Source: a virus. From it: a stretch of DNA of 22,871 bases. Position numbers and translations under genes: made by a program. Position 1 is the stretch's first letter, and each line of letters opens with the position of its first letter. The notes under the pieces are model-generated. The model saw only the letters and a program-made list of their open reading frames with translations, ran no database searches and had not been told where the DNA came from. Of the stretch, positions 1-18,454 are shown piece after piece. The stretch lies in the IMG/VR virus record IMGVR_UViG_3300033388_002911, positions 1 through 22,871 of that record. One strand, given 5' to 3'.

Positions 1-1149
1 TCATCAAGAAATAAAAATGGGCAAACTAAAACAGGCTTATATAAACTTTTTATTCCTATGGAATGGAATTATGAGGGTTTTATTGATCAGTACGGCTATC
101 CTGTGTTTGATACTCCAAAAAAAGAAACATTAGACCCACAGGGAAATTTAATTACGGAAGGAGTTATACAGCACTGGGAAAACGAAGTTGAAGGATTAAA
201 AGATGATGCAGATGCTCTAAATGAATATTACCGGCAGTTTCCTCGCACAGAGCAACACGCTTTTAGAGACGAGGCAAAACAATCTATATTTAATTTAACA
301 AAAATCTATCAGCAAATAGATTATAACGAAGAATTAAAAAATTCTGCTATGGTTACCCAAGGTAACTTCCAGTGGGAAAACGGTATTAAAGATACCAAAG
401 TAATATTCTATCCAAATAAAAGTGGTAGATTTTTTATTACTTGGGTACCGGATCAAGGACAACAAAATAACTTAATAATAAAAAATGGTATTAAATATCC
501 TGGTAATGAGCATTTGGGGGCATTTGGATGTGACAGCTATGATATTAGTGGTGTTGTTGGTGGTGGCGGATCTAACGGGGCGCTTCATGGATTAACAAAA
601 TTTTCTATAGAAGATGTACCACCTAATCATTTTTTTCTTGAGTATATTGCAAGACCTTCTACTGCGGAAATGTTTTTTGAAGATGTATTAATGGCTTTAG
701 TATTTTATGGTATGCCTTTATTAGCAGAAAATAATAAACCTAGACTGCTTTACTATTTAAAACGTAGAGGGTATAGGGGTTTTAGTATTAATAGACCAGA
801 CAAAACATATAATAAATTATCAGTTTCAGAAAAAGAAGTTGGCGGAATACCTAATTCAAGTGAGGATATAAAACAAGCACATGCATCCGCTATAGAAACA
901 TATATAGAAGATTTCGTAGGTGAAAAAAAAGATGGATATGGAGATATGTATTTACAAAGAACACTGGAAGACTGGGCAAGATTTGATATAAATAATAGAA
1001 CTAAGCATGATGCTTCTATAAGTTCAGGACTTGCCTTGATGGCTTGTAATAAACATAGGTATAATCCTAAAGGCTTAACTAAAATTAAATCATATTCTTT
1101 AGGTTTTAAAAAATATAATAACGAGGGAACTACTTCAAAAATAATATAA
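1..1149 (+). CDS. terL: Terminase large subunit, C-terminal part (5' end outside window)
   Basis: DNA-packaging motor subunit; the part seen is the C-terminal nuclease half, which cuts phage DNA at the portal. The frame is open from base 1 with no stop, and the residues before the first ATG (base 58) run directly into terminase-like sequence (KLFIPMEWNYEGFIDQYG), so that ATG is internal and the gene starts upstream of the window. The nuclease (RNase H-like) domain shows an acidic cluster GCDSYD near bases 526-543 and a late conserved Asp in KHDASISSGLAL (Asp codon 1009-1011), the usual pattern of catalytic acids in terminase nucleases. The ATPase half (Walker A/B) is not in the window. The gene ends with tandem TAA stops (1147-1152), the second touching the portal start codon. 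Order terminase-portal-scaffold-capsid supports the call. Confidence 0.92.
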   Translation, partial: SSRNKNGQTKTGLYKLFIPMEWNYEGFIDQYGYPVFDTPKKETLDPQGNLITEGVIQHWENEVEGLKDDADALNEYYRQFPRTEQHAFRDEAKQSIFNLTKIYQQIDYNEELKNSAMVTQGNFQWENGIKDTKVIFYPNKSGRFFITWVPDQGQQNNLIIKNGIKYPGNEHLGAFGCDSYDISGVVGGGGSNGALHGLTKFSIEDVPPNHFFLEYIARPSTAEMFFEDVLMALVFYGMPLLAENNKPRLLYYLKRRGYRGFSINRPDKTYNKLSVSEKEVGGIPNSSEDIKQAHASAIETYIEDFVGEKKDGYGDMYLQRTLEDWARFDINNRTKHDASISSGLALMACNKHRYNPKGLTKIKSYSLGFKKYNNEGTTSKII

Positions 1150-1152
1150 TAA

Positions 1153-3564
1153 ATGAATATAAGTACAAATACTAATAGCTCATTTCCAGATCAGGTTGTA
1201 AGTGACGCTGAGAAAGCAACGTGGGAATACGGACTTCAAGTTAGTAGAGCTATTGAACAAGAATGGTTCAATTATGGAGGTGGTGGCTCAAATCGTTATG
1301 CTGCAAATTGGAATAACTTTCATAATCTACGGTTATATGCTAGGGGTGAGCAAAGCGTACAAAAATATAAAGACGAATTAGCTATTAATGGAGATTTGTC
1401 TTATCTTAACTTGGATTGGAAGCCAGTCCCTATATTATCTAAGTTTTCTAATATAGTTGCTAATGGTATAACTCAAAAGCAGTATGATTTAACTTCGTAC
1501 GCTCAAGACCCTGAGTCTTTAAAGAAAAGAACAGACTTTGCTGAGGACTTATTATTTGATATGCTCACTAAAAACGAGCAAGCTCAAGCGTCTGAAATAG
1601 TTAACGTTAATTTGAGCAGGTCTAATATTTCTCCAGATAATTTGCCTGAGTCTTTAGAAGAAAGAGATCTTCACATGCAACTTAGTTATAAGCAAGCAAT
1701 TGAAGTAGCCGAGGAAGAAGCTATTAGCGCGGTTTTAGCAACTAATGAATTTGATCTTACTAAAGCTAGAGTAAATCAAGATTTAGTAAATATAGGAATA
1801 GGCATTACCAAAACTTCTTTTAACCCCGCGGAAGGTGTTGTAATTGATTATGTTGATCCAGCTTATTGCGTTTGGTCTTATACAGAGGATCCTCATTTTG
1901 AAGATATATATTATGTAGGAGAAGTTAAATCTATAACTATACCAGAACTTAAGAAGGAATTCCCTAATATATCTAATGAAGAATTGAAAAAAATTCAAGA
2001 TATGCCTGGTAATAGGCGAATGATTAGAGGTTTTGAAAGCTATGATTATAATACAGTTCAAGTTTTGTATTTTGAATATAAGACTTATGCAGATCAAGTA
2101 TTTAAAATAAAAAGAACTGACTCTGGGTTGGAGAAAGCAATTGAAAAAACTGATGAATTTAACCCTCCTCCAAATGACAATTTTGAAAGAGTAGCTAGAT
2201 CTATAGAAGTTTTATACGAAGGAGCTAAAGTTATAGGAACTGATATAATGCTTAAGTGGGAAATGTCAGAAAACATGACAAGACCTTTGGCCGATACAAC
2301 TCGTGTTGAAATGAGCTATTCTTTATGTGCTCCCAGAATGTATAAAGGAAAAATACAATCCTTAATAAGTAAGTGTATAGGTTTTGCTGATGTCATTCAA
2401 TTAACTCATTTAAAAATACAACAAGTTTTATCTAGAATGGTTCCTGATGGTATATTTTTAGATATGGACGGATTAGCTGAAGTGGATTTAGGCAACGGAA
2501 CAAATTATAATCCTGCTGAGGCATTGAACATGTACTTTCAAACAGGTTCTGTTGTGGGTAGATCTCTTACTCAAGATGGAGATATGAATAGAGGTAAAGT
2601 ACCTATCCAGGAGTTAAATTCTTCTAACGGCATGGGCAAAATACAATCCCTTATAACAGCATATAACTATAATATGCAAATGATTAGAGATGTCACCGGA
2701 TTGAATGAAGCAAGAGATGGCTCTTTACCTTCAGCAGATTCATTAGTTGGTTTACAAAAAATGGCCGCTAATGCTTCGAATGTGGCTACTAAACATATAC
2801 AAGATGCTAGTTTATTTTTAGCTTTAAGCACTTGTGAAAATATATCTTTAAAAATAGCTGATGTTTTAAATTTTCCATTAACAAAAAATTCTTTAATGAA
2901 CAGTATATCTACATTTAATGTAGCTACTCTTAATGAAATTCAGAACTTAAATCTTCATGATTTTGGCATATATTTAGAAATGGAACCCGACGACGAAGAA
3001 AAAGCTGAATTAGCAGCTAACATAAATGCTTCGCTTCAACAAGGTAGTATTGATATAGAAGATGCTATCGATATACGTGAGATTAAAAATCTTAAGTTAG
3101 CTAATCAAATGCTAAAGCTTAAGCGCAAGAAAAAATTAGAGAGAGAACAAGCGGTAACACAACAAAATATCCAGGCTCAGGCTGAAGCAAATGCTCAAGC
3201 TTCTGAAAAAGCTGCAATGGCAGAAGTACAAAAACAGCAAGCACTCACATCTGAAAAAGTTGCAATTGAACAGGCTAAGTCTCAGTTTGAAATACAAAGA
3301 ATGGAAAGAGAAGCTCAAATTAAAAAGCAGTTAATGGCAACTGAATTTGAGTACAATATGCAATTAGCACAGGCGCAAATTGGCGCCACTACGCAAAAAG
3401 AAAAAGAAATAGAGGATCGAAAAGATAAAAGAGTAAAAATACAAGGAACTCAACAGAGTGAGCTTATACAGCAAAGGCAAACAGAAGGAATGCCTAAAAA
3501 CTTTGAATCACAAGGAAACGATGTAATGGGAGGATTTGACTTATCATCCTTTGATCCTACATAA
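1153..3564 (+). CDS. Portal protein
   Basis: Predicted to form the ring at the special capsid vertex through which DNA is packaged and released, and to which the collar proteins attach. At 803 residues it is in the size range of portals of large podovirus-like and crAss-like phages. It directly follows terminase and precedes scaffold and capsid genes, the standard position. The middle of the protein (about residues 350-560) has portal-like helical sequence, e.g. GKIQSLITAYNYNMQMIRDV followed by TGLNEARDG. From about residue 653 to 776 it becomes very rich in Gln, Glu, Lys and Ala with no Gly or Pro breaks, a likely long coiled coil, matching the C-terminal helical barrel or crown of portals. 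Start choice: the ATG lies directly after a double TAA, in an A/T-rich context without Shine-Dalgarno. Family assignment comes from position, length and remembered similarity. Confidence 0.88.
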   Translation: MNISTNTNSSFPDQVVSDAEKATWEYGLQVSRAIEQEWFNYGGGGSNRYAANWNNFHNLRLYARGEQSVQKYKDELAINGDLSYLNLDWKPVPILSKFSNIVANGITQKQYDLTSYAQDPESLKKRTDFAEDLLFDMLTKNEQAQASEIVNVNLSRSNISPDNLPESLEERDLHMQLSYKQAIEVAEEEAISAVLATNEFDLTKARVNQDLVNIGIGITKTSFNPAEGVVIDYVDPAYCVWSYTEDPHFEDIYYVGEVKSITIPELKKEFPNISNEELKKIQDMPGNRRMIRGFESYDYNTVQVLYFEYKTYADQVFKIKRTDSGLEKAIEKTDEFNPPPNDNFERVARSIEVLYEGAKVIGTDIMLKWEMSENMTRPLADTTRVEMSYSLCAPRMYKGKIQSLISKCIGFADVIQLTHLKIQQVLSRMVPDGIFLDMDGLAEVDLGNGTNYNPAEALNMYFQTGSVVGRSLTQDGDMNRGKVPIQELNSSNGMGKIQSLITAYNYNMQMIRDVTGLNEARDGSLPSADSLVGLQKMAANASNVATKHIQDASLFLALSTCENISLKIADVLNFPLTKNSLMNSISTFNVATLNEIQNLNLHDFGIYLEMEPDDEEKAELAANINASLQQGSIDIEDAIDIREIKNLKLANQMLKLKRKKKLEREQAVTQQNIQAQAEANAQASEKAAMAEVQKQQALTSEKVAIEQAKSQFEIQRMEREAQIKKQLMATEFEYNMQLAQAQIGATTQKEKEIEDRKDKRVKIQGTQQSELIQQRQTEGMPKNFESQGNDVMGGFDLSSFDPT

Positions 3565-3576
3565 ATAAGTATTTAA

Positions 3577-3595: not shown

Positions 3596-3596
3596 C

Positions 3597-4748: not shown

Positions 4749-4753
4749 TAACA

Positions 4754-6214
4754 ATGAGTTTATTACCACAATTTGGGAGTATAGTCCCATCACAAACACA
4801 GCAATTACTTGCTACAAATTATTTACAATGGAACAACAATGGCGGAGGTGCTGGAATTCCAGGAAACTTTGTTGACTTTGCTCAGCAGTATTTACCAGAA
4901 ATCTACGAAGCAGAAGTAGAACGTTATGGAAACAGAACGTTATCTGGATTTTTACGAATGGTTGGCGCTGAAATGCCAATGACTTCTGATCAAGTTATTT
5001 GGTCTGAACAAAACAGATTACACATTTCTTACGCTGGAGTATCTCAAGCTAACGGAGCTGGTACATTATCTGTAATTACTCTTAACCCAGGCGCTGTAGC
5101 AGGAGTTAGTAATGTAATCTCAGTAAATGACACTGTTGTTGTTTTAGATCCAGCTAATGGACTAGAAGCTAAAGGTATTGTAACTGCTTCAGTATTAGGA
5201 GCTGCAGGAACAATTACTATTCAGCCTTTTGCTGGAACTACTTTGACTACTCAAGGTTTCTCTGCAACTGGATTAAAAGTATTTGTTTACGGATCTGATT
5301 ATTCTAAAGGAACTACAATCGGAACTGGAGCAGGTAACTCAGCTGCAAGAAATAGTATTGAACCGGTATTAACACAATTTTCTAACTCTCCAATCATTAT
5401 TAGAGATCAGTATGTTGTATCTGGGTCTGATACTGCACAAATCGGATGGGTAAATGTAGCGACTGAAGACGGAACTGACGGGTACTTATGGTATTTGAAA
5501 GCTGAATCTGAAACACGTCTACGTTTTGAAGATTATTTAGAAATGGCAATGGTAGAAGGTGAATTAAATGCATCTGCTCTTAATCCATTAACTCAGCCAG
5601 GAACACAAGGTTTATTTGCCGCTATTCAAGATAGAGGAAATGTTGAAACTGGATTTACAGCTGCAAATGGATTAACTGAATTTGATGCAATCCTTAAAAA
5701 CCTTGATACTCAGGGAGCAATTGAGGAAAACATGTTATTCTTAAATCGCCAGACTGCTTTAGATTTTGATGATATGCTAGCAAGCATTTCTTCAGGAGTT
5801 TCAGGAGGTGTTGCTTATGGATTATTTGAAAATTCAGAAGACATGGCACTTAACTTAGGATTTAGCGGTTTCCGTAGAGGATCTTATGACTTTTACAAAA
5901 CAGATTGGAAATACTTAAATGATGCGTCTACTCGTGGAGCTATCAATGGAGTTAATTCAATTGAAGGTGTATTAGTACCTGCTGGAACTTCAACTGTTTA
6001 CGATCAAGTTTTAGGAACTAATATTCGTCGTCCATTTTTGCACGTACGATACAGAGCTTCTCAAACTGATGACCGTAGAATGAAATCTTGGTTAACAGGA
6101 TCTGTTGGAGGCGCTAGTAACTCAACTCTTGATGCAATGGAAGTAAACTTCCTATCTGAAAGATGTTTGATTACTCAAGCAGCTAATAACTTTGTATTAT
6201 TTAGAGGAATCTAA
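4754..6214 (+). CDS. Major capsid protein (crAss-like, HK97-type fold expected)
   Basis: Main shell protein of the phage head. It has 486 residues, a typical size for crAss-like capsid proteins. Recognisable stretches are QYLPEIYEAEVERYGNRTLS near the N terminus, IWSEQNRLHISY (about residues 75-86) and the C-terminal LSERCLITQAANNFVLF, which I associate with crAss-like capsid proteins. A Gly/Thr/Val-rich segment at about residues 95-190 looks like a beta-rich insertion in the shell domain. Codon use differs a little from neighbours: by my count 11 of 21 arginines use CGN codons, against 3 of 14 in the terminase part from base 58 on, as expected for a highly expressed gene. The gene is closed by a strong hairpin terminator 14 nt after its stop, so a large share of its transcripts probably end there. 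Confidence 0.93.
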   Translation: MSLLPQFGSIVPSQTQQLLATNYLQWNNNGGGAGIPGNFVDFAQQYLPEIYEAEVERYGNRTLSGFLRMVGAEMPMTSDQVIWSEQNRLHISYAGVSQANGAGTLSVITLNPGAVAGVSNVISVNDTVVVLDPANGLEAKGIVTASVLGAAGTITIQPFAGTTLTTQGFSATGLKVFVYGSDYSKGTTIGTGAGNSAARNSIEPVLTQFSNSPIIIRDQYVVSGSDTAQIGWVNVATEDGTDGYLWYLKAESETRLRFEDYLEMAMVEGELNASALNPLTQPGTQGLFAAIQDRGNVETGFTAANGLTEFDAILKNLDTQGAIEENMLFLNRQTALDFDDMLASISSGVSGGVAYGLFENSEDMALNLGFSGFRRGSYDFYKTDWKYLNDASTRGAINGVNSIEGVLVPAGTSTVYDQVLGTNIRRPFLHVRYRASQTDDRRMKSWLTGSVGGASNSTLDAMEVNFLSERCLITQAANNFVLFRGI

Positions 6215-6227
6215 TAATTCCAACACT

Positions 6228-6263
6228 AAAGGCGGGGGCTTTCGAGCCCTCTCCTTTATTTTT
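6228..6263 (+). terminator. Rho-independent-type terminator after capsid gene
   Basis: A 13-position stem (6228-6240 with 6245-6257) closes on a four-base TTCG loop (6241-6244). All positions pair except one C/T mismatch and one G-T wobble, and the arms are GC-rich in an otherwise AT-rich region. ATTTTT follows at 6258-6263. It lies 14 nt after the capsid stop codon. The stable UUCG-type loop and the T tract make this the clearest regulatory site in the window. Confidence 0.85.
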
Positions 6264-6270
6264 AATTATT

Positions 6271-6283
6271 TAATTATATTATA
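6271..6283 (+). promoter_or_regulatory. Repeated 13-mer TAATTATATTATA (copy 1), candidate promoter
   Basis: The 13 bases TAATTATATTATA lie between the capsid terminator and the ATG at 6286, and occur identically at 7161-7173. A terminator followed at once by this element would make sense if it restarts transcription. It lies only 2 nt before the start codon, which argues for a leaderless or very short transcript, or for a role in translation instead. It does not match the usual Bacteroidota host promoter (TTTG near -33, TAnnTTTG near -7). Confidence 0.35.
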
Positions 6284-6285
6284 TT

Positions 6286-7140
6286 ATGGCAAATAAAAAA
6301 CCTGTAGCTAAAAAAGCTACAACAGAAAAAGAAATTATAGAAACAGTAGAAAAAGCAACTGTTAAGGAACCGGTTGTTGAAACACCAAAAAAACCAACTA
6401 AACCTAAATGGGAAATTAAAGATAGGTTGTATTACTTAGTAGGTAGACATACTCCTCTTACATTAACTATTCCGGGTAAGCATACTAGAAAACATGCATT
6501 GTTGTATTTTGATCCCGAAACCGGTAACCAAAAAGAAATTAGATACGCCACTAATCATGATTCCCCTTTTAAAAGTGAGCAAGAAGGAGAAGCTACGTTA
6601 GGGCATATTATGTTTAGAGATGGGGATTTAAGAGTTCCTAAAGAACAACAAAATTTACAAAAACTTCTTTCTTTATATCACCCCTTAAAAGGTCGTATAT
6701 ATGAAGAATATGATCCCGTTGAAGAAGCTTACGATGATTTAGAATTATTAGATCTTCAAACCGATGCAGCAGTATTTGCTAGAGATATGGATATTGACGA
6801 TGCTGAAGCTATATTAAGGGTTGAAATGGGCAGCACAGTTAATCAATTGTCATCAAAAGAAATAAAAAGAGATTTAAGATTGTTTGCAAATAAAAATCCT
6901 GAATTATTTTTAGAATTAGCACAAGACGAAAATGTAGGACTTAGAAATGTAGCAATAAAAGCTACAGAAAGTAATATAATTACTTTATCTCAAGATCAAC
7001 GAACTTTTTCTTGGACATCTAATGGCAGAAAATTAATATCTGTACCTTTTGATGAAAATCCTTATTCAGCTATGGCAGCTTATTTTAAGACCGACGAAGG
7101 AGTTGAAGTTTATAGATCTATAGAAAAGAAACTTAATTAG
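6286..7140 (+). CDS. Conserved structural-cluster protein of unknown function
   Basis: A 284-residue soluble protein. The first 40 or so residues are Lys/Thr/Glu/Val-rich and probably disordered. A compact domain follows, beginning near WEIKDRLYYLVGRHTPLTLT and including KHTRKHALLYFDPETGNQKE and DEEV-type acidic stretches; the C terminus contains LSQDQRTFSWTSNGRKL. I recall similar proteins next to capsid genes of crAss-like and marine phages without an assigned function. No catalytic motif, membrane segment or coiled coil stands out. Position between capsid and ring proteins suggests a head-completion, capsid-decoration or portal-adaptor role, which is inference. It is the only gene here with TAG as its stop, doubled (TAGTAG at 7138-7143). 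Its likely promoter element (6271-6283) lies just upstream. Confidence 0.8.
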   Translation: MANKKPVAKKATTEKEIIETVEKATVKEPVVETPKKPTKPKWEIKDRLYYLVGRHTPLTLTIPGKHTRKHALLYFDPETGNQKEIRYATNHDSPFKSEQEGEATLGHIMFRDGDLRVPKEQQNLQKLLSLYHPLKGRIYEEYDPVEEAYDDLELLDLQTDAAVFARDMDIDDAEAILRVEMGSTVNQLSSKEIKRDLRLFANKNPELFLELAQDENVGLRNVAIKATESNIITLSQDQRTFSWTSNGRKLISVPFDENPYSAMAAYFKTDEGVEVYRSIEKKLN

Positions 7141-7160
7141 TAGTTTTTTAAAAAAACACG

Positions 7161-7173
7161 TAATTATATTATA
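7161..7173 (+). promoter_or_regulatory. Repeated 13-mer TAATTATATTATA (copy 2), candidate promoter
   Basis: An exact second copy of the element at 6271-6283, inside the 100-nt gap before the ring protein gene. Here it is followed by a hairpin (7189-7218) and then the start codon at 7241. If this is a promoter, the ring/muzzle transcript would begin with the hairpin in its 5' leader. The rest of the 7141-7240 gap holds a T6A7 run (7144-7156) and nothing that looks coding. Confidence 0.35.
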
Positions 7174-7188
7174 GATGGTGAATTATTA

Positions 7189-7218
7189 TTGACCGGTTTC
7201 TTAAGTGAGACCGGTTAA
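7189..7218 (+). terminator. Stem-loop in leader of ring gene (terminator or 5' leader structure)
   Basis: A 12-position stem (7189-7200 with 7207-7218), including two G-T wobbles and no mismatches, closes on a six-base loop TTAAGT (7201-7206). Each arm contains ACCGGT, itself a palindrome. What follows (TATTTATAAC) is only weakly T-rich, so termination is less sure than at 6228. The hairpin ends 22 nt before the ATG at 7241 and could equally protect or regulate the downstream message. Confidence 0.5.
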
Positions 7219-7240
7219 TATTTATAACAAAAGAAATAAA

Positions 7241-8088
7241 ATGGCAGTAAACGTAGACATAGTTTATAAAACGGTGTTACTTATTCTTAACAAAGAACAG
7301 AGAGGTATACTGTAAATATACAACTTCGTAGACCAGACAATGATACGGAATATGGTGACAGAATTAAAAATGTTGATCAAGCCATTTCTATATTTAAAAA
7401 ATACGGGACAGCTACTTATGTTGCACCAGATAAATGCTTTACGCTTCCTACAGCCTCTGGAGCTAGTGCAGCTACACAAAATTTTACAGGAAATGGCACA
7501 TCTATATCGTTTCCTTTTACATCAATAACATCTTCTCAGTTAGCTAGTAGTGTAATATCCGTCACTATTAATGGTGTTATTACAACCGCTTTTACTATTA
7601 GCGGTGCTAACATAATATTTAATACTATTCCAGCTAATTCAGCCGCTATAGTTGTTACGGCAACCCCAGAGGACTTTTATAAGCTTGGCACAGTAATATA
7701 TAAAGACACTACAGAAGCTCAACTGGTGCAGCGAAACGAGCTTTTATATATAAATACCACTCCTTTGGTTGCACCTACTGCCACATATCCTGTATATTTA
7801 TATGAGAACCATAAATTATATTTATATCCGCAAACTATTACATCGGATATAACAGTAAGCTATTTAAGAAAACCTTTAGATGTTATTTGGAATTTTACAA
7901 TACCGTCAGGACAAAATTATTACCAATGGGATCCAACTAATTCTGTTGATTTCGAATTATCAAAAACAGAACAAACTAATATTATATTAAAAATATTACT
8001 TTATTCTGGAGTCGTTATAAAAGATCCTCAAATAATTAATGTAGCCGCTCAACAAGTTCAACAAGAAGTACAACGCTCAACATTATAA
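7241..8088 (+). pseudogene. Collar/ring (tail tubular-type) protein gene, disrupted by frameshift or deletion
   Basis: In crAss-like phages this family forms part of the collar ring below the portal. The start at 7241 gives MAVNVDIVYKTVLLILNKEQ and then RGIL, stopping at 7313-7315 after 24 residues. The next frame over is open from 7291 to 8088 and reads IQLRRPDNDTEYGDRIKNVD, then LGTVIYKD, RNELLYIN, YPVYLYENHKLYLYP and SYLRKPLDVIW, clearly the rest of the same protein. From memory of relatives, about 25 residues that normally follow NKEQRG (a segment with a TPxEFN-like motif) are missing from both frames, so a non-triplet deletion fits better than a single-base slip. No classic slippery heptamer is visible in the 7291-7312 overlap. 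A beta-rich insert lies at 7475-7670. As written, the longest piece with its own ATG starts at 7726 (120 residues). Natural mutation and assembly error are both possible. Confidence 0.78.
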
Positions 8089-8091
8089 GAT

Positions 8092-9303
8092 ATGCCTATA
8101 CCTAATGGCGGTTTAATAACCGAAACTAACGAACAATATTACGCTGGAGCTCAGCGATTTTTATCTGACGGGAGCGGAGAAATAACTACTACATTTAATA
8201 CTGATTTAGTTTTTTCTACTTCTAATACAGCGTTACCAGAATATGCACTAAATAATTTTCAAATATATACTAGCACAACAAACAATCCGGGGTCTTATAC
8301 TGAATATGTTGGGACATATACGGTTGCTAATAATAAAATAACTTTTAGTGTTGCACCTGTAGCTGGGTTATATATTGCAGTCCAATTAAAATCTTTAGAT
8401 GGCGGAAATTTTGGTAACGAACAGGCTATAGGAACCGCTGTACAAGAAAATTACGGAAGTTATGGCTATACTTCTTTAAATGATATTATAAACGGATTTA
8501 TAGCTACTTATGTTGGAGAACATAAATTAATTCCAGACGTAAAAAGAACAGATGTAATATTTCATGCTAAAAGAGGATTACAAGAATTTAGCTACGACAC
8601 ATTAAGAAGTATTAAATCTCAGGAGTTAACTATTCCTGCAAGTTTAAGTGTTATAATACCTCAAGATTATGTAAACTATGTTAATATATCATATATAGAT
8701 GCTTTAGGAGTTAAACATCCTATATATCCCGCTAATAATTTAACTATGTCTCCTTATGAGGTTCCTATTCAAGACGATGAAGGTGACCCTACCCAAGATT
8801 ATTTTGGAGATAACCTAGAAGGCACTTCTGTGACTATGCAGCGATGGGCCGATGCTAACGACAATTTATTAAACGGAAATATAAGTCCTCAAGATTATTT
8901 TGCATACGCTGGTTGGCTAACTGGAAATCCTATTTTAGGAGAGCGGTATGGAAATGACCCGCAATATACTCAAAGAAATGGGTGGTTTAATATGAATGAA
9001 AGAGATGGAACAATAGCTTTTTCTTCTAACTTAAAAGATTGTTTAATAATACTTGAATACATATCAGACGGCTTAGCTTATGAATTAGATTCAAGAATAC
9101 CAAAAATGGCTGAAGATGCTTTATATGCACATATATTATATTCTATATTAGCATCTAGAATTAATCAGCCCGAATATATTGTACAAAGATTAAAAAGAGA
9201 CAGATCGGCTAAACTGAGAAATGCAAAAATAAGATTATCAAATATTAAGCTTGAAGAAATTACTCAAGTAATGCGCGGTAAATCGAAATGGATTAAATCA
9301 TAA
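8092..9303 (+). CDS. Collar/ring protein (tail tubular-type, crAss-like)
   Basis: Probable ring component joining portal to tail muzzle. It has 403 residues. The region from about residue 120 on contains IPDVKRTDVIFHAKRGLQEF, SYDTLRSIKSQELTIPASLS and VIIPQDYVNYVNISYID, stretches I recognise from crAss-like tail tubular/ring proteins. Residues about 27-101 form a separate beta-rich unit (GSGEITTTFNTDLVF ... NKITFSVAPVAGLYIAVQLK) that resembles the small domains found in phage tail fibre and decoration proteins. A similar unit sits in the preceding gene. The C terminus is basic (RLKRDRSAKLRNAKIRLSNI), possibly facing DNA or the portal. The start lies 3 nt after the stop of the upstream gene and the stop 4 nt before the next, so these genes are co-transcribed. 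Confidence 0.85.
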   Translation: MPIPNGGLITETNEQYYAGAQRFLSDGSGEITTTFNTDLVFSTSNTALPEYALNNFQIYTSTTNNPGSYTEYVGTYTVANNKITFSVAPVAGLYIAVQLKSLDGGNFGNEQAIGTAVQENYGSYGYTSLNDIINGFIATYVGEHKLIPDVKRTDVIFHAKRGLQEFSYDTLRSIKSQELTIPASLSVIIPQDYVNYVNISYIDALGVKHPIYPANNLTMSPYEVPIQDDEGDPTQDYFGDNLEGTSVTMQRWADANDNLLNGNISPQDYFAYAGWLTGNPILGERYGNDPQYTQRNGWFNMNERDGTIAFSSNLKDCLIILEYISDGLAYELDSRIPKMAEDALYAHILYSILASRINQPEYIVQRLKRDRSAKLRNAKIRLSNIKLEEITQVMRGKSKWIKS

Positions 9304-9307
9304 TTAA

Positions 9308-9799
9308 ATGGCTCAACAAATAAAAAACACATTTCTAAAGTCTAAGATGAATAAAGATCTTGACGATAGAATATTACCTAACGGTGAATATAGAGATGCT
9401 CGGAATATATCTGTTGGTAGATCTGAAGATAACGATGTTGGCGCTTTAGAAAATATAATAGGTAACAATTTAATACCTAGTACAGACTTAGGTTCTGACT
9501 TAACTATTATAGGAATTAAAAAAAATAATGCCACCGACCAAATATTTGTTTTTTTAACAGATTACACAGATCCTAATCCCTCTAGCCCAACTGATGCTCC
9601 ATTGGGATCAAATCATTATATATATGTTTACAATAATTCCACTAAAGAATATACTCCTTTAGTAAGAGGGGAATTTTTAAACTTTTCAACAACAAATAGG
9701 ATAATAGGAATAAACTTAATTGAAAACTTATTGTTTTGGACTGATAATAGAAATCAGCCTAGAAAAATTAACATTAATTTAGCTACTATAGCGGAATAA
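9308..9799 (+). CDS. N-terminal part of split tail muzzle protein
   Basis: A 163-residue protein beginning MAQQIKNTFLKSKMNKDLDD and continuing RILPNGEYRDARNISV, which I recognise as the N terminus of the large crAss-like tail muzzle/tail tubular B-type protein. It ends with LLFWTDNRNQPRKININLAT, a stretch that in relatives is followed soon by the EHQISVAKY-type sequence seen at the start of the next gene. The TAA at 9797-9799 is in the same frame as the next gene, whose ATG comes 12 nt later. TAA ends most genes in this window, so recoding is unlikely. The fragment is long enough to fold and could assemble with its partner. Whether the stop is natural or a sequencing error cannot be told from this copy alone. 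Confidence 0.8.
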   Translation: MAQQIKNTFLKSKMNKDLDDRILPNGEYRDARNISVGRSEDNDVGALENIIGNNLIPSTDLGSDLTIIGIKKNNATDQIFVFLTDYTDPNPSSPTDAPLGSNHYIYVYNNSTKEYTPLVRGEFLNFSTTNRIIGINLIENLLFWTDNRNQPRKININLATIAE

Positions 9800-9811
9800 T
9801 ATAATAAAATT

Positions 9812-12800
9812 ATGGGAGGTCAAGCAGCCGAAGATTATTACACGCAGGAACATCAAATATCTGTAGCTAAATACAACCCTTATCAAGTTATAAAATTATA
9901 TAATAGAATAAACTTGGTAACTACGGGGGGAGGAACTACATACTTCAGTTTAGCTGGAGACGTTGAAGCTTCTATAACTCCTTTCATTGGGGCTACCGTA
10001 GTATCTCCAGAACAAAGCACAGCTATAACAGGGCTAGATCATATAAAAGTAACTGCAGTTCAATATGTTAGTACATTTAATGAAACTAGAGTAGACGTTT
10101 CCCCGTCTTTTTCTGCGGTATTAGCCGCTAATACCTATGTTTCTTTAATTATTTCTACAATGGCCAATAAAACAGGTGATAACACATGGCCTGGAGATCC
10201 TGATTATTTAGAAGATAAATTTGTTAGATTTAGTTATAGATTTAAGTTTGATGACAATGAATACTCTTTGATGGCCCCATTTACCCAAATAGCTTATATA
10301 CCTAAGCAAGATGGATATTTTTTAAATGGGGACGAAGATGCCGCTTATCAGTCTACTATTGTTCCTTTTATGGAAAATCAAGTCCAAAACATAGGACTAG
10401 TTATACCATTACCGACAAGTGGGAGTAGAATAGTTAATGACTATAAAATAAAAGAATTAGAGATATTATTTAGAGAAAGTGATAGTGTTGCTGTTAAAGT
10501 TTTAGAAAGTGTTACTGCTCAACAAATTGCTGGAGCAACAGCCATTAATAACTATTACACTTATGACTATCAGTCGCGTAAACCTTATAAAACTCTACCA
10601 GAAGCTCAAACAACTAGGGTTTATGATAAAGTGCCAGTAAGGGCGTTTTCTCAAGAAAGTTCTGGTAATAGAATTATATATGGAAATTATAGAGATCAGC
10701 ATACACCTCCTACAAATATAAATTACAACTGCAGAATATCTAATAAAAGTAGTACAGGAAAATATAATAATTGGATAGAATATCCTAACCATTCGGTAAA
10801 AAGAAATAGAAATTATCAAGTGGGATTTGTTTTAGCTGATAAATTCGGACGTCAATCTCCTGTAATATTATCTTCAGTAGATAATGGAATAACTAGTGAC
10901 GGTCAATTTTATTTTGGATCTACTATATATAGTCCTTATGATATTAATGCGGCTGACACTGATGTTAAAAGCTGGTTTGGAGATGCTATAATGGTTTTAG
11001 TAAATTCAGAAATAGCCTCTACAAAAAATTTATCAGCTGGTACGCCAGGGTTATATGCAATAAAACAGGATGCTGGCTCAGGAAACGGAGAGGGTTTTGC
11101 TATTAATGGTAACGCAGCAATTGTTGACGATTCCACATATACATTTTCTTTAAATAGTACTTCTTTTCCTAACAACAATCATATTCCTAATATAGGCGAT
11201 TATATGAGAGGTGCTTATGAAGATTTTGTTAAAGTAGAAAATAGAACAGGTCCATCAGGAGGAGGACAAACTTATACCGTTACTACATCTGGTAGAGTAA
11301 GTGATGTTTATTTACGAACAGATAACTTGCCTTCGGGTACACCTGATTTAAAATTTGCATATAACATAAATGATTTAGGTTGGTATAGTTACAAAATAGT
11401 TGTGAAACAAACACAACAAGAATATTATAATGTATACCTGCCTGGAATACTTAATGGTTACCCCGGACAAAGTGGAGCTATTAATGAACCAACCAACCCA
11501 AACGTTGCAGGAGGAATTGATAATGGTTTGTTTCCTACAGACGAAACAAATCTTACTGCTTTTACCGTGTTATTTAATGACAATATAAATAAAATACCTA
11601 GAGATCTAGCTGAAGTTGGTCCGGATCAAAAACAATATAGAAGTTCTGTTACATTGTATGGTAGAGTAACTAATATAATGACGGTTGCAAGCGCAGGAAA
11701 TCCTTCAATACCTTACAATAGTCAATATTATGCTAGAATTACTTCAGAAGGCAAAACGGCAATATCACACACCTCTACAGCAATAGCGAGAGCTAAAGAG
11801 GTTAACATGGGGTACTCCGATTTATCTAATGGTTATTCAGTTGCGCCTCCTAACGCTGTAAACACAGGCCCTGGAATTGGAAACAAAGCTTTTTATCAAA
11901 TAGATACAAATCCGTTGATATCAAGAATTTCTACAGTTGATAAACCTATAGGAGCCACTTCTTTAAACATAGTTCCAACGCCGCCTTTAGTGGATTCACT
12001 TAATTTACCAGCGGGGGCTGAAAACATGGAACCATATTTAGCGATTTATGAAACAGAGCCTACAGAATCATTATTAGATATATATTGGGAAACAGCTAGT
12101 GAAGGATTAATAGTCGATTTAAACTCAGATGTGCTTTCAGGAGCTGGGGGAGCGACTTCGTTTATAAATGTAACATGGGATTTTAGCGAGACTACTACAA
12201 AAAATACTTATGTAACGGGATTTTTTGAGCCTGTTAATGCTTCAGGTGAGGTTTTTGCAACTCCTACTACGGCAGAACTAATAAGTCAAACTAATGGTAA
12301 TAATGAAGCTGTTGCGTTATTTAGGCTTTACTCTGGCACTGGTAGTTTTGACGGGCAATATAAGTTAGAATACATAGGAGAAAATCCTTTAGTATTTATT
12401 GATTCAAGTAGAGAAAATGACGTTTATTCTTTTGTTATCAGAGTTACTACAAGTGATGATGATGTTAGCGAACTTACGCTTGCTGGCGAGATAGAAGGTT
12501 TTGGCGCTTTAAAAAACATAGTACCTACGTATAATCAAATATCTAATTTTTCTACTACGAAAGATACCCAAATAATATTACCAGGCGTACCAGGAACAAA
12601 ATGGACCGCGGCAGATCCTAAAAATGGTACAGGAAATAATTCTCAGGTTAGAACACAACTACAATACACTATTAATAACCCAGACGATGTTCCTTCTAAC
12701 TGGTCTATGGATATAGAAAACGGAGAAATAACTCAAACAGTTCCTAGTAATGCTAGCGGCTCTTATAATGTTGATATACGAGTTACAGACGCTAACGGAA

Positions 12801-13984
12801 TAACTAATCCTACTGTATCTGGTAATTATGGTCAACTAGATGTAACCCGAACTACAACTATTACTGTAGGATATGCATCTGTTAATACTGAGGCTCTTAG
12901 CACTATTTGTACTTTTGATCCGAATACATCAGGGACGCCTCCAGCTGATGTAATGATAGCAAATACTACTCCTGTTACTGGCTTATGGTATATAAGCGAA
13001 CAAAATACTGGTAATTATCTTGATTTTGGAGATTTATATACCGAATACGGGATAGATGTCAGTAACACAAAAAGAATTGGTAGTAAAGCACATAAGTCAG
13101 GTACTTTAGCAATAACAGCTAATTTTAAACAAGAAAATTTACAAGCAGGACCCGCTGTAGATAGCAAATTTAAAGTTAAAAATATTGAATATTACTATAG
13201 ATATTTAGATACTTCTGGAATACCAATAGGATCTTGGCAAAAAGTTTCTAGACTTTTAGAATACAATAAGTCTGGTATAACAACTGAAATCGCTTCCCCT
13301 ACTTATAACGAACCCTCATACATTCAAGGATTTCCAATAGGAAGTGGGGGCTATGAGGTTTCAGGAGGCGGCATCACGCAAGGTAATAGCAAGTGGTTGC
13401 AAACAATTAGAGCTTTTGATTTTCTACAAATTACAGAAGGTAATAATATAGGAAGCGTAGAATATGCTTTTATTATAGAAGATTTACAACGAACTTTTGG
13501 AAATTCCTTACAACCCGTAGCTGGCTGGATTAATGCAGATGATTTACATTATCCTGCCTGTATTCCTTGGCAGGGAACTAATTTAGCTGCCTCGTACACT
13601 GAATATAAATATTTTAGGTCTGCTCCGAGTCCAAATTCTATTAACACAGGTCCTCCTGGTACGGACGCAATATACGCAGAAACACCTTATATAGAGTATG
13701 TTAATCAATTTTTTACAGATGTAGCCTTACAAACACCATATAAACCAGCTACCTATCCTTATATTAGTGCTAAGTTAGATTTATTTTATGGAGCTGGAAT
13801 TCCAGGGCTTACAGACTATACAGGATTTCCTTTAGGAGATGTAAATTTTTCCGTAGGGCTAAGTACAGAAGATGGGGTTAGACTTCAAAATGAGGATCTA
13901 AACGTGGGGGTAAATACCATACCTACAATTGGTACATCTCCTTTTAATCCAGCAGGCTTAAGTAGAATAAAAACAATTTTGTAA
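9812..13984 (+). CDS. Main part of tail muzzle protein
   Basis: A 1390-residue tail protein that would form the channel extension under the collar and may contact the host surface. It starts MGGQAAEDYYTQEHQISVAK, then VRFSYRFKFDDNEYSLMAPF (about residues 138-157), both typical of crAss-like muzzle proteins. Mid-protein MEPYLAIYETEPTESLLDIY (about 742-761) is a motif seen in many phage tail proteins. Residues about 780-890 look cadherin-like (LFRLYSGTGSFDGQYKLEYI then YSFVIRVTTSDDD). Residues about 905-1025 look Ig-like (NWSMDIENGEITQTVPSNAS, then YNVDIRVTDANG). It is Thr/Ser/Asn-rich with few charged runs, as expected for an extended beta structure; no membrane segment or signal is visible. 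The same frame upstream encodes its probable N-terminal piece beyond a TAA. Its stop is 2 nt before the next gene. Confidence 0.87.
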   Translation: MGGQAAEDYYTQEHQISVAKYNPYQVIKLYNRINLVTTGGGTTYFSLAGDVEASITPFIGATVVSPEQSTAITGLDHIKVTAVQYVSTFNETRVDVSPSFSAVLAANTYVSLIISTMANKTGDNTWPGDPDYLEDKFVRFSYRFKFDDNEYSLMAPFTQIAYIPKQDGYFLNGDEDAAYQSTIVPFMENQVQNIGLVIPLPTSGSRIVNDYKIKELEILFRESDSVAVKVLESVTAQQIAGATAINNYYTYDYQSRKPYKTLPEAQTTRVYDKVPVRAFSQESSGNRIIYGNYRDQHTPPTNINYNCRISNKSSTGKYNNWIEYPNHSVKRNRNYQVGFVLADKFGRQSPVILSSVDNGITSDGQFYFGSTIYSPYDINAADTDVKSWFGDAIMVLVNSEIASTKNLSAGTPGLYAIKQDAGSGNGEGFAINGNAAIVDDSTYTFSLNSTSFPNNNHIPNIGDYMRGAYEDFVKVENRTGPSGGGQTYTVTTSGRVSDVYLRTDNLPSGTPDLKFAYNINDLGWYSYKIVVKQTQQEYYNVYLPGILNGYPGQSGAINEPTNPNVAGGIDNGLFPTDETNLTAFTVLFNDNINKIPRDLAEVGPDQKQYRSSVTLYGRVTNIMTVASAGNPSIPYNSQYYARITSEGKTAISHTSTAIARAKEVNMGYSDLSNGYSVAPPNAVNTGPGIGNKAFYQIDTNPLISRISTVDKPIGATSLNIVPTPPLVDSLNLPAGAENMEPYLAIYETEPTESLLDIYWETASEGLIVDLNSDVLSGAGGATSFINVTWDFSETTTKNTYVTGFFEPVNASGEVFATPTTAELISQTNGNNEAVALFRLYSGTGSFDGQYKLEYIGENPLVFIDSSRENDVYSFVIRVTTSDDDVSELTLAGEIEGFGALKNIVPTYNQISNFSTTKDTQIILPGVPGTKWTAADPKNGTGNNSQVRTQLQYTINNPDDVPSNWSMDIENGEITQTVPSNASGSYNVDIRVTDANGITNPTVSGNYGQLDVTRTTTITVGYASVNTEALSTICTFDPNTSGTPPADVMIANTTPVTGLWYISEQNTGNYLDFGDLYTEYGIDVSNTKRIGSKAHKSGTLAITANFKQENLQAGPAVDSKFKVKNIEYYYRYLDTSGIPIGSWQKVSRLLEYNKSGITTEIASPTYNEPSYIQGFPIGSGGYEVSGGGITQGNSKWLQTIRAFDFLQITEGNNIGSVEYAFIIEDLQRTFGNSLQPVAGWINADDLHYPACIPWQGTNLAASYTEYKYFRSAPSPNSINTGPPGTDAIYAETPYIEYVNQFFTDVALQTPYKPATYPYISAKLDLFYGAGIPGLTDYTGFPLGDVNFSVGLSTEDGVRLQNEDLNVGVNTIPTIGTSPFNPAGLSRIKTIL

Positions 13985-13986
13985 AA

Positions 13987-15582
13987 ATGGCAGCAAATAT
14001 AGAACTTAAATATTTCAATACATTCTGGTTAAAGAAAATGAAAACTATAACCAAAGTATTGCCAGAGGCTCAAATAGATCCTACGACTCCTCTAACGGTA
14101 CAAAATGTTACAGCCGCAGGTATCGAAGTGCAATCAAATACTTTATTAACGGATGGAATAATAAATGTGGGACAGGAAGTTGTTATAAACTATGTTAATC
14201 TAGGAATTCCTGTTAACTTTGTAAGTTATATAACAGAAATAGTTTCTTCTACAGTTTTTAAAACCAAAGATACTCTACAATCTCTGCCACCTACTGGAAC
14301 TCCGATAATATTTGGAAAAATTATAAATTTTGATCAAATACCTCAAGCTTATGCAAGCGTAGTTGATAGCGATTGGCTAATTGAGGAATCTAGAATAACT
14401 GGTGGATATAATAATACATCTGTTGATTTTGGGGTTAAGGCTTATATAGTTGAAGATGAACCGGCTCAATCTCACAGGTTTAGCGGATTAATACATTCAG
14501 GTATATTTAATTCTAGAACAGGTTTTAATGCAACTAATCAATTTAGTGTAGGAGAAGACATAACTAGGACTATAGATCCAGCTAACGGATCTATTCAAAA
14601 ATTATATGCAGAAGATACTAACCTTATTATATTTCAAGAAAGTAAAGTGAGTAAATCTTTAATAGATAAAGACGCTATATATTCTGCAGAAGGAAATGCT
14701 AGTGTTACTAGTCGTAATTTAGTTATAGGGCAAAATATAGCTTTTGGAGGAGAATACGGAATTAGTACTGATCCAGAATCATTTGCTGTTAATGGGTATA
14801 GAAAGTACTTTACGGATAAAGACCAAAATGTAGTTTGTAGACTATCTATGGACGGAATAACTGTAATATCAAACTATGGTATGTCTGATTATTTTAGAGA
14901 TAAGTTATCTACTGCAACATCAGGAGGAATTAAGGGTGGCTGGGATGCTCACAATAAACAATATGTAGTTTCAGTTACATCGGAAATACCGGATTCAAAA
15001 GGATCTACCACTGAAAATAATACTTTAGCGTTTGATGACACTGTAAAAGGGTGGACTAGTTTCTTTGATTATAATCCAAATCATATAATAAGTTTAAATA
15101 ACGATTATTTTACAACAAATAACGGAAAATTATATAAGCATTATACCTTAGCGGCTAATACAACAGACAGAGCGGTATTTTATGGAATTACGTATAATTC
15201 TAGTGTAACATTTGTGTTTAATGGAGCTCCGTCAACAGTTAAAAACTTTCAAACTATAAACTATGAGGGATCTGATGGCTGGAGAATGGAAAGCTTTTTT
15301 ACTAATACCGATACAGCTTTGCCTATAACTCAATCAATATTTGTTACTAATTTACAGCAAATGCAGGATTCTCTTTTAATAAACAGATTTAAAGCTAAAG
15401 AAGACAAATATTATGCTGACATTGTTAATAGCACACCGCCTCAAAATGGAGAAATTGTTTGGGGATCTTCTTCCTCTGGTGTAAAAGGGTTTTATGGGGA
15501 AATTAAAATGGACATAAATAATATAAATGCAGGCAAAAAAGAATTATTTGCAGTAAGCACAACTTTTGTGCAATCATCTTAA
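13987..15582 (+). CDS. Tail protein, probable C-terminal or partner part of muzzle
   Basis: A 531-residue structural protein. From about residue 130 it carries stretches I associate with the distal or C-terminal region of crAss-like muzzle proteins: ITGGYNNTSVDFGVKAYIVE, SGIFNSRTGFNATNQFSVGE, IQKLYAEDTNLIIFQESKVS and ESFAVNGYRKYFTDKDQN. Repeated short beta units (GGWDAHNKQYVVSV, FDDTVKGWTSFFDY) look like propeller blades. Residues about 24-105 appear to be a beta-rich insert between NTFWLKK and the main domain. It starts 2 nt after the previous stop, in a different frame from the 1390-residue protein. It may be a naturally separate subunit in this lineage or the third piece of a divided muzzle; I cannot decide without relatives. 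Assignment as a tail structural protein is firm, exact role less so. Confidence 0.78.
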   Translation: MAANIELKYFNTFWLKKMKTITKVLPEAQIDPTTPLTVQNVTAAGIEVQSNTLLTDGIINVGQEVVINYVNLGIPVNFVSYITEIVSSTVFKTKDTLQSLPPTGTPIIFGKIINFDQIPQAYASVVDSDWLIEESRITGGYNNTSVDFGVKAYIVEDEPAQSHRFSGLIHSGIFNSRTGFNATNQFSVGEDITRTIDPANGSIQKLYAEDTNLIIFQESKVSKSLIDKDAIYSAEGNASVTSRNLVIGQNIAFGGEYGISTDPESFAVNGYRKYFTDKDQNVVCRLSMDGITVISNYGMSDYFRDKLSTATSGGIKGGWDAHNKQYVVSVTSEIPDSKGSTTENNTLAFDDTVKGWTSFFDYNPNHIISLNNDYFTTNNGKLYKHYTLAANTTDRAVFYGITYNSSVTFVFNGAPSTVKNFQTINYEGSDGWRMESFFTNTDTALPITQSIFVTNLQQMQDSLLINRFKAKEDKYYADIVNSTPPQNGEIVWGSSSSGVKGFYGEIKMDINNINAGKKELFAVSTTFVQSS

Positions 15583-15592
15583 ATCAAATTAA

Positions 15593-16057
15593 ATGAATAA
15601 TGAATTATCAATTAATTTTATAAAACAATTAGAAGTATTACAGAATGTGCTTATAGAAAGCAATGAAGAGGGTGTTTATGGAGATGGTAAAAATTTAGTT
15701 AATAATGAAGAATTTCCAATAACTAATAATTTTACCGACGGATTATACATGCGACAAATGAAAATGAAAGCTGATACTATGGTTATAAGTGCTATACATC
15801 ATACGAATCATTTTTGGTTTCTTCTTTCTGGGAAAGTAATAGTACAGGCTGACAATGAAACTGTAGAACATGTAGCCCCTTGTTGGTCATACTCTTTAAA
15901 AGGAACTAAAAGATTAATTAAATGCGTAGAGGATTGTGTTTGGATAAACATAATAGCAAACCCTACAGATACTAGAAATATAGAAGAGGTGGAGAATAAT
16001 TTCTTTTCCTTTACAATGGAAGAATATAATAAAAAAGAAAAGTTATGTCAGGAATGA
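15593..16057 (+). CDS. Small cupin-like phage protein
   Basis: A 154-residue protein with a likely single cupin (small beta-barrel) domain: FTDGLYMRQMKMKADTMVIS, then HHTNHFWFLLSGKVIV (His at residues 69, 70 and 73), APCWSYSLKGTKRLIKCVED and a final strand WINIIANPTDTR. The order, spacing and Gly turns match phage cupins that I recall from structural gene clusters, whose function is not established. The canonical metal-binding Glu of motif 1 is not evident, so metal binding or enzyme activity is uncertain. It may be a small virion or assembly factor, or may modify a virion part. Its TGA stop (the only TGA stop here) overlaps the next gene, indicating coupled translation. Confidence 0.72.
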   Translation: MNNELSINFIKQLEVLQNVLIESNEEGVYGDGKNLVNNEEFPITNNFTDGLYMRQMKMKADTMVISAIHHTNHFWFLLSGKVIVQADNETVEHVAPCWSYSLKGTKRLIKCVEDCVWINIIANPTDTRNIEEVENNFFSFTMEEYNKKEKLCQE

Positions 16058-16935
16058 TTGTAGCCGCTGGGATAGGTGCGGCAACCAGTATAATCGGCGG
16101 AATAGTTGGAGGAAGAAAAGCCAAAAAGCAAGCTAGAGCGGCCGCTGCCGAAAAGAAAAGAATTCAAGGAGCTATAAATGCTTTTGAAAAAAATAGACAA
16201 GATGTTATAAATCCTTATTCTGATGTTAAATCTTTAGCTGGATTAGCTACTGATCTTAGTGGGGAAATGTCTAATCCTTATGCAGATTTAGGAGTAGCTA
16301 CGAGTGCCGCTGAAATTCAAATGGAACAAACTGATTTAGCTTTAGCTGCAACTCTAGATACATTACAAGCAACAGGAGCTAGTGCCGGTGGTGCCACTGC
16401 TTTAGCAAATGCCGCGGCTAAAAGTAAGAAAGATGTTGCTGCTAATATAGAGCAACAAGAAGCTCAAAACGAAAAGTTAGCTGCGCAGGGTGAAGCTGAT
16501 TTACAGGCTAAACAAATGGCTGAAAAAGCTAGAATACAAGGAATACAAATATCTGAAGGAGGTAGAGCTCAAATGGCACAAGCGCAAGGTGAAGCTTTTA
16601 AATTTCAAGCACAAGAAGGAAGGGATCAAGCTACTCTTGACAGAATGGCTGCGGGTCTTACACAGGCTAGCGCAAATCAAGCTAATGCTAATGCAGCTCA
16701 AGCAGCTAGCACAGGAGCTATAATAAGCGGTGTTGGTAATATGGCTGGAGCAGTAATTGGCGCTGGAGGATTCGGTAAAACCCCAACTGCTAATACAGGC
16801 GGATCAACCGAAGGTTTTGGCGGTGCTCAAACACAAGCAGGATATGATTACTTTAATGATCCAAATATACCTACAGGAACTACTAATAGTACACAACCCG
16901 TAGGAGTAGGTAGTATGGGTAATTTACCTAATTAA
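16045..16935 (+). CDS. Putative internal virion / DNA-ejection protein (small)
   Basis: A 296-residue protein, Ala/Gln-rich. Residues 3-22 are a hydrophobic Gly/Ala/Ile stretch (GMIVAAGIGAATSIIGGIVG) followed by a basic patch (GRKAKKQARAAAAEKKR). A long helix, likely coiled coil, spans about residues 80-230 (many Ala, Gln, Glu, Lys). A second Gly/Ala hydrophobic segment follows (about 225-245, TGAIISGVGNMAGAVIGAGG), and a Gly/Thr/Asn-rich tail ends the protein. This layout matches small ejection proteins of podoviruses (T7 gp14-like in type), which enter the host envelope to build a DNA channel; the match is by architecture, not by sequence. The start is ambiguous: ATG 16045 overlaps the cupin gene by 13 nt, whereas the in-frame ATG at 16054 gives the classic 4-nt ATGA overlap and only loses MSG. 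Either way it is translationally coupled. Confidence 0.65.
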   Translation: MSGMIVAAGIGAATSIIGGIVGGRKAKKQARAAAAEKKRIQGAINAFEKNRQDVINPYSDVKSLAGLATDLSGEMSNPYADLGVATSAAEIQMEQTDLALAATLDTLQATGASAGGATALANAAAKSKKDVAANIEQQEAQNEKLAAQGEADLQAKQMAEKARIQGIQISEGGRAQMAQAQGEAFKFQAQEGRDQATLDRMAAGLTQASANQANANAAQAASTGAIISGVGNMAGAVIGAGGFGKTPTANTGGSTEGFGGAQTQAGYDYFNDPNIPTGTTNSTQPVGVGSMGNLPN

Positions 16936-16945
16936 AAAAAATAAA

Positions 16946-18448
16946 ATGAGTTATAGAAATCCACAAATAATACAAGATCGTTCCGGCGAAATAATATCTC
17001 AATCTATAGCGCAGGCTACGGGAGCTATAGCGCAGGGAGTAGCTAAATTTGGTGCTGATCAAAAAAGAGAACGAGAAAAACGAGAGTTAGAAAGAAAACA
17101 GTTTAATCAAAACATGATTAAATTATCTAACGAGCAAGCTGCTGATGCGTCGCTATTTAATAAGGGACTAGCTGGTATGTCAGACTCTATGCGCCAGCAA
17201 ATGGTAATAGGTAATAATGCCACTCTTGAAAGAATATATGCAATTAAAAAAGCTCAGATGCAAGGGAATAACGACCCTGCACTTTCGGAGAGTTTAGCCC
17301 AAGAGCGGATGAAAATAGCTACATATAATGAATTAGCTAAAACCGCTATTGGAGCTACTGCGGATTTACCTGAAATGGTAAAAAACTTTCAGCAAGCAGG
17401 TACTGAAATATTCTTAAAAGAAAATGCTGATGGAACAACGACTGAGTCTGAAGCTTTATTCAATGGTTTTGGGGGAGCTCCAGGATATCAGGCGGGGCTA
17501 AAGTATAAAGGAGATGGAAGTATGGTTGCTTGGGCAAAAAATAAAGCTGGTAAGTATTTTGAAATCAATGCTCAAGATTTTCCAGAAAGAATGCAAAATT
17601 TAACTATACAGGCTAAAAATCCAGTTAATGAGATGGGCACTAGTCAAGCAGCTATGCTTTATGATAAAAAAGGTAACTTTCTGCCCAACATTGTAGAAGG
17701 AGAAACTGTTCTTACTAAAGGCGAACCCAATAGCTTGGGCCAACTCACTTCTTATGAAAAACAAAATTTGAATGTTGAACGAGTAAATGCTATTAGGGAA
17801 GAATTATCAGAAAAAAACTTAGCTAAAATTCAAGCAGCGGATGGTAACAAACAACTGCAGAATTATTATTTGGACATGTTCAATATTGATGCAGACGCTA
17901 ATTCTTGGCGATCTATGACTGATGAAGAACAAAAAAAGAAAGTAAAAGAAACTAGCGACGCTATATTTTTTGCCGGTACTAAAATACAAGAAGTAAAAGA
18001 TGGCGATGCTACTGCTGGTTACTTTAGAAAGTTAAACGAAAAATCTTATAACCCTCCCAAACAAAGTACTTCAAAAATTAGTGAAGCCCAAAGAGATAGA
18101 TTAGCTTATGATCGTAGGACTAACGATTATTTTGCTCAAGAGGGTGTTGACAAACTAGTTGCTCTTAAAAACTCATTCGACTTAAGCAGCGCGGCTAAAC
18201 TTGATAATCAGAATATCACTAGCGTAGATTTTAATCCTACTGGCTTTACAGTTAATTTAGGAGAAGACCCAAATGCAGAAATTGGCGCAGGTGGAGTAGC
18301 TCCTTCTATAACAAAAGAATTTTCATATAATTCTACGGACGGATTCAATGCGCTATCTAAGTTAGTTAGCACCCAATATTTTGGAGGAAAAAAGAGAACT
18401 GAAGCAGAAAAAATGGTTGCTAATATACTTAACAAATACAAAAATTAA
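16946..18448 (+). CDS. Putative internal virion (cargo) protein
   Basis: A 500-residue protein with no recognisable enzyme motif. The N terminus (about residues 1-30) is Gly/Ala/Ile-rich and amphipathic (IAQATGAIAQGVAKFGADQ). A strongly charged helix follows (QKREREKRELERKQFNQN, about 38-56), then mostly helical soluble sequence, with a last domain (about 400-500) of mixed strands and helices (FTVNLGEDPNAEIG, SKLVSTQYFGGKKRTEAEKM). Position between the small ejection-type protein and the giant virion protein suggests it is the second member of a set of three proteins carried inside the head, as in podoviruses (T7 gp14-gp15-gp16) and the cargo proteins of crAss-like phages. This is inferred from order and size. 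The ATG follows an A-rich stretch; the next gene begins 6 nt after its stop. Confidence 0.6.
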   Translation: MSYRNPQIIQDRSGEIISQSIAQATGAIAQGVAKFGADQKREREKRELERKQFNQNMIKLSNEQAADASLFNKGLAGMSDSMRQQMVIGNNATLERIYAIKKAQMQGNNDPALSESLAQERMKIATYNELAKTAIGATADLPEMVKNFQQAGTEIFLKENADGTTTESEALFNGFGGAPGYQAGLKYKGDGSMVAWAKNKAGKYFEINAQDFPERMQNLTIQAKNPVNEMGTSQAAMLYDKKGNFLPNIVEGETVLTKGEPNSLGQLTSYEKQNLNVERVNAIREELSEKNLAKIQAADGNKQLQNYYLDMFNIDADANSWRSMTDEEQKKKVKETSDAIFFAGTKIQEVKDGDATAGYFRKLNEKSYNPPKQSTSKISEAQRDRLAYDRRTNDYFAQEGVDKLVALKNSFDLSSAAKLDNQNITSVDFNPTGFTVNLGEDPNAEIGAGGVAPSITKEFSYNSTDGFNALSKLVSTQYFGGKKRTEAEKMVANILNKYKN

Positions 18449-18454
18449 ATTAAT

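Follow-up and report, generated by a model that had tools for sequence, protein, structure and literature searches.

A tail muzzle gene apparently split twice, into three adjacent open reading frames, in uncultured crAss-like phages

The muzzle, the plug of the tail tip, is normally a single chain and in this form is considered a conserved hallmark of crAss-like phages. Muzzles of this type are defined as hexamers composed of ring-joining, 7-bladed propeller, IG1, IG2 and crass-fold domains. In crAss001 it is gp44, one chain of 1371 aa (PF25731/PF25729; PMC10172136), in which domain IG1 spans residues 163–292 between propeller blades 2 and 3, and residues 318–1021 contain IG2 together with its crass-fold insertions (PMC10172136). 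The window analysed here, which spans an entire virus record (22,871 bases) and encodes terminase and portal upstream of the muzzle, shares with crAss001 the N- and C-terminal homology, the order of the parts and the position after the tail ring genes, but distributes the muzzle over three genes of 163, 1390 and 531 aa. Among the closest named muzzle relatives (26–37% identity by tblastn) are phi38:1 gp097 and phi13:2 gp120 from Cellulophaga phages, Flavobacterium elemo phages and Tenacibaculum phage Gundel_1; the hosts of the named relatives are thus Cellulophaga, Flavobacterium and Tenacibaculum. These muzzles share the gene neighbourhood of the window, and all are in one piece (1324, 1613, 1470 and 1386 aa, respectively), in contrast to the three genes of the window.

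Phage genes split by homing endonucleases include Aeh1 nrdA, the T4 topoisomerase gene and gene 43 of Aeromonas phage 25, and the pieces of Aeh1 nrdA and of phage 25 gene 43 are reported to form active enzyme (PMC2988022). Enzymes provide the known examples of split phage products that assemble, and most of these splits followed insertion of a homing endonuclease (PMC2988022). The window resembles these cases in that a protein that is single elsewhere comes from adjacent genes, but differs in that a structural virion protein is concerned, with two breaks apparently of different age. Neither an endonuclease gene nor an insert is present at either break in the window, where the genes lie 12 nt and 2 nt apart, and no contig with the first junction carries an insert there. 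We found no description of a split muzzle in the open (non-subscription) literature searched.

All features lie on the plus strand. ORF1 (9308..9799, 163 aa) is the N-terminal piece, as indicated by Pfam PF25731 crAss_MUZ (positions 5–145, E 9.2e-12, 44.3 bits against a cut-off of 27), phrog_14478 (positions 1–153, E 5e-25) and alignment to crAss001. The middle piece, ORF2 (9812..13984, 1390 aa), aligns with one-piece muzzles and matches phrog_14478 at 189–334 (E 4e-23), the profile assignment being through this PHROG only and not through Pfam; annotation by a full-length profile will miss or mislabel this piece. ORF3 (13987..15582, 531 aa) is the C-terminal piece, matching Pfam PF25729 crAss_MUZ_C (E 5e-10, 40.2 bits against a cut-off of 27) and phrog_14478 (positions 928–1258, E 1e-47). 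Sequence searches of the PDB with ORF1, ORF2 and an N-terminal alignment gave no match, nor did a DNA-level search of GenBank phages. The first-pass annotation had read ORF1 and ORF2 as one muzzle protein interrupted by a stop, in agreement with their common match to phrog_14478, and had suggested fission into a two-chain muzzle. The fission is borne out by a clade-wide junction, purifying selection and start signals (see below), but the two chains are not, as ORF3 is the C-terminal part: muzzle homology runs on past a second boundary (13984/13987) that had been overlooked. Instead of a single polypeptide, the window has three ORFs, and a muzzle of three chains rather than two is therefore predicted.

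Alignment to crAss001 gp44 places ORF1 at residues 1 to ~155 and profile alignment places ORF3 at ~920–1364; split 1 thus follows residue 155, by alignment just before domain IG1. By the published domain map, ORF1 is predicted to comprise the ring-joining part and the first propeller blades. The alignment is weak within ORF2 and domain limits are approximate, so that the position of the cuts relative to the gp44 domains suggests only roughly that ORF2 corresponds to the cell-facing tip, formed by IG1, IG2 and the crass-fold, while ORF3 would hold the end of IG2, the rest of the propeller and the C-terminal domain, forming the base together with ORF1. The N-terminal 440 aa of L103, a relative with an intact muzzle, were modelled at a mean pLDDT of 75, with confidence falling to ~55 in the linker block 161–170 that follows strand 151–155, compatible with a loop at split 1. 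The proposal that stop and restart lie in a linker fits both this model and the variation in length and sequence at this place among intact relatives. A PDB fold search with the N-terminal model returned nothing at E <= 0.001, and matches at E > 0.001 (some propellers, one phage portal-tail complex) were set aside. The model of ORF3 was of low confidence and too poor to use.

ORF1 and ORF2 share one frame and are separated by a single TAA (9797..9799) and the 12 nt TATAATAAAATT, followed by an ATG at 9812–9814; the frame is then free of further stops until 13984. The junction TAA-TAYAATAAAATT-ATG is present in the window and in five other IMG/VR contigs, the TAA being identical in all six and replaced by sense codons in the ~20 nearest intact relatives. 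Across four diverged genomes, 1/12 spacer sites varies.

The ATG at 9812 looks like a genuine start on account of its upstream context, suppressed synonymous change downstream and a recurrent motif. We scored its context with a position matrix trained on 77 gene starts of intact relatives, largely homologous genes, and tested against 3,488 internal ATGs, of which only 0.3% reach the score of ATG 9812. The score in L101 is similar, while the junction of L108, another split phage, gives a weak score that 3.4% of internal ATGs reach. Positive start determinants in Flavobacterium johnsoniae are adenines at -3, -6 and -12/-13 in an AT-rich leader (PMC6847099). ATG 9812 has A at -3, -6 and -13 and T at -12 in an AT-rich leader (9795..9811), in keeping with the A/T-rich context described at first pass, and so conforms to a Bacteroidota-type (non-Shine-Dalgarno) start as defined by determinants from F. 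johnsoniae. Among four diverged split phages, the 15 codons that follow the ATG (9815..9859) show suppressed synonymous change, with 1/13 comparable codons changed compared to 55% overall (binomial P 0.0005). This is particular to the split clade: anchored on conserved YY codons, 3/14 are variable in split phages vs 10/13 in intact relatives (Fisher P 0.007). In the same phages, the corresponding counts at other starts are 3/14 for ORF1, 4/13 for the upstream gene and 7/14 for ORF3, so that such suppression is common but not universal.

The leader also contains the 14-nt motif AATAATATAATAAA (9795–9808), of which the window has three copies, each closely preceding a start, against an expectation of 0.24 (0/100 shuffles reach three). 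The second copy is an exact match at the portal gene start (1140..1153, ATG at 1153), and the third, found by motif search with one mismatch, lies at 16020..16033, ahead of the gene that begins at 16045. An origin of split 1 through copying of the portal start region is not claimed, because the idea is supported by one shared 14-mer and a check in relatives returned nothing.

The same junction bears on the alternative raised at first pass, programmed readthrough, whereby most ribosomes would terminate at TAA 9797 while some would read on to yield a joined N-terminal and middle protein. The spacer can be translated in frame (YNKI) in all six contigs, its lone variable base falls on a third codon position (TAT/TAC), and its low variation also fits coding (P ~0.09 under a coding model, a hand estimate); judged on the junction by itself, readthrough therefore keeps a small probability. 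The open frame is the one observation in its favour. In bacteria, termination at a TAA with a following T is tight, the junction shows no unusual RNA structure (z ~0), and no tRNA gene, hence no suppressor, occurs in the window or in the four loci scanned. The start-site signals at 9812 would moreover be superfluous. We consider readthrough improbable and fission the better account of the junction.

The contigs sharing the junction are 3300021378_000106, 3300025543_001096, 3300050343_000104, 3300017782_000037 and 3300024255_000448, which are 82–87% identical to the window over the DNA compared, two of them being mutually 95% identical. The best 80 relatives of ORF1 were examined, the top three of which have the same stop and restart; a scan for the junction pattern, together with a second scan at the protein level, brought in two further contigs, and a looser pattern recovered the same five and no others. 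Most matches to the junction pattern outside the clade were rejected as chance, there being no muzzle sequence there. The next-nearest relatives (L004–L022, L103 and L119) are open across the place of split 1, with a linker variable in length and sequence. In trees that exclude the linker, the six split sequences group as one clade (support 100/100 for protein and 99/97 for ORF1 DNA) in which the window is the first to branch. The sequence comparison thus strongly supports a single origin of split 1, in an ancestor shared by the window and its five known relatives. Comparison with homologues had been proposed at first pass, with intact genes in all near relatives and a single-base difference as the outcome speaking against fission; that pattern did not materialise, the split being common to five other contigs while ~20 next-nearest relatives are uninterrupted. 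Two other near relatives, L109 and L111, have many frameshifts over the muzzle region, suggestive of error-prone assemblies.

Within the split clade, ORF1 displays dS of 0.60–0.95 and dN/dS of 0.07–0.12, near the values of the upstream gene. ORF3 is similar (dN/dS 0.10–0.13), while ORF2 is looser (0.12–0.34 by part and pair). High dS with low dN/dS indicates that split 1 is old and that both parts have been kept since; such values would not be expected of a gene that is dead or newly broken. It is conceivable that the fission is real but ORF1 is a separate protein with another role, the muzzle being formed by ORF2 and ORF3 only, as the membership of ORF1 in the muzzle is deduced from its sequence. 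ORF1 is however 74–86% identical to the N-termini of intact muzzles in the nearest intact relatives (L004–L021) and under the same constraint as its neighbouring gene. Furthermore, no second copy of the N-terminal muzzle part occurs elsewhere in the 22,871-base record. A separate role for ORF1 therefore appears quite unlikely compared to membership in a fissioned muzzle.

A sequencing error or recent nonsense mutation in one phage could be suspected given that the window does have a 70-nt deletion and frameshift in a neighbouring gene. The junction is nevertheless present in the five contigs at 82–87% identity, with the high dS and low dN/dS noted above, and because these contigs come from other metagenomes, chance or error is very unlikely to have produced it, as the first-pass annotation had held in arguing against random damage. 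Reassignment of TAA to an amino acid can be dismissed: stop codons are reassigned in some Crassvirales, but the published cases concern TAG (to Gln) and TGA (to Trp) rather than TAA (PMC10136315; PMC12386605), and TAA is the normal stop of the window genes, closing 10/12 closed genes (9/11 without ORF1), in a window with no tRNA gene.

At split 2 (13982..13989), the ORF2 stop is followed after 2 nt by the ORF3 ATG in a different frame. A separate ORF carries the C-terminal muzzle part in 57/57 uncultured loci with both ends, window included, although some of these loci are near-identical and most were found through ORF1, making the sample non-random. The ORF3 start is conserved across loci and resembles MAATIELKYFNSFWL. 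One-piece muzzles are found in crAss001 and five GenBank relatives (phi38:1, elemo, phi13:2, ctfjg026 and Gundel_1). By parsimony, split 2 would be the older and split 1 the younger event. In Maribacter phage Panino (L116, 6800–7500), the annotated muzzle is frameshifted inside the C-terminal part and the rest annotated as hypothetical, possibly through sequencing error. L108 has an extra in-frame TGA in a variable ORF2 linker (~10251–10302, offset 2754–2805 from the ORF1 start), seen in this contig only, with the next ATG 48 nt later. This TGA was not counted as a fission, as that ATG lacks a start-like context; it may be a third break, damage or error.

We propose that the muzzle gene has truly been fissioned twice (probability roughly 0.86). 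An older split would have set apart the C-terminal part, and a younger one would have turned the loop before IG1 into a stop and a Bacteroidota-type AT-rich start. Translation of ORF1 would terminate at TAA 9797 and that of ORF2 would start at ATG 9812, with ribosomes either reinitiating locally or initiating independently; the same would apply to ORF3. Translation as separate chains, assembly and function are what we infer from this arrangement, with the three chains predicted to assemble non-covalently as a hexameric tail-tip gatekeeper. A natural three-chain muzzle would show where the protein tolerates cuts and provide split points for structural and assembly work. Furthermore, with an essential virion protein represented by stages of one, two and three pieces, the route by which a gene undergoes fission becomes open to testing.

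In two members of the split clade, L100 and L101, a ~1.4 kb tract of ORF2 has few differences (offset ~3420–4860 from the ORF1 start), despite dS of ~0.9–1.1 in ORF1 and ORF3. The tract ends ~35 nt inside ORF3, while its left end falls inside ORF2, not at split 1. This pattern shows recombination between the sequences, with one end near the ORF2/ORF3 border. It is possible, and in keeping with this tract, if rather doubtful, that the gatekeeper of a large uncultured crAss-like group is being progressively broken at domain borders, the cell-contacting ORF2 tip becoming a separate subunit exchangeable between phages while the propeller base of ORF1 and ORF3 stays; such a modular tip is hypothetical.

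Strong mosaicism is also seen over window positions 4800–9500 in comparison with L100, L101, L103 and L108. L101 and L103 are 95–97% identical up to ~7300 and ~80% beyond, and the closest of them to the window is L103 immediately before the muzzle and L100 at the split itself. In the same region, a 305-aa gene (window 7168–8088) that is intact in L001 and relatives is reduced by the 70-nt deletion and frameshift to ORFs of 62 and 120 aa; either damage to the gene or a flawed assembly may account for this. Downstream of the muzzle, at 16045–22870, three large genes (296, 500 and >=1472 aa, the last being at least that long) with no Pfam or PHROGs match occupy the place of the cargo and RNA polymerase genes in crAss001.
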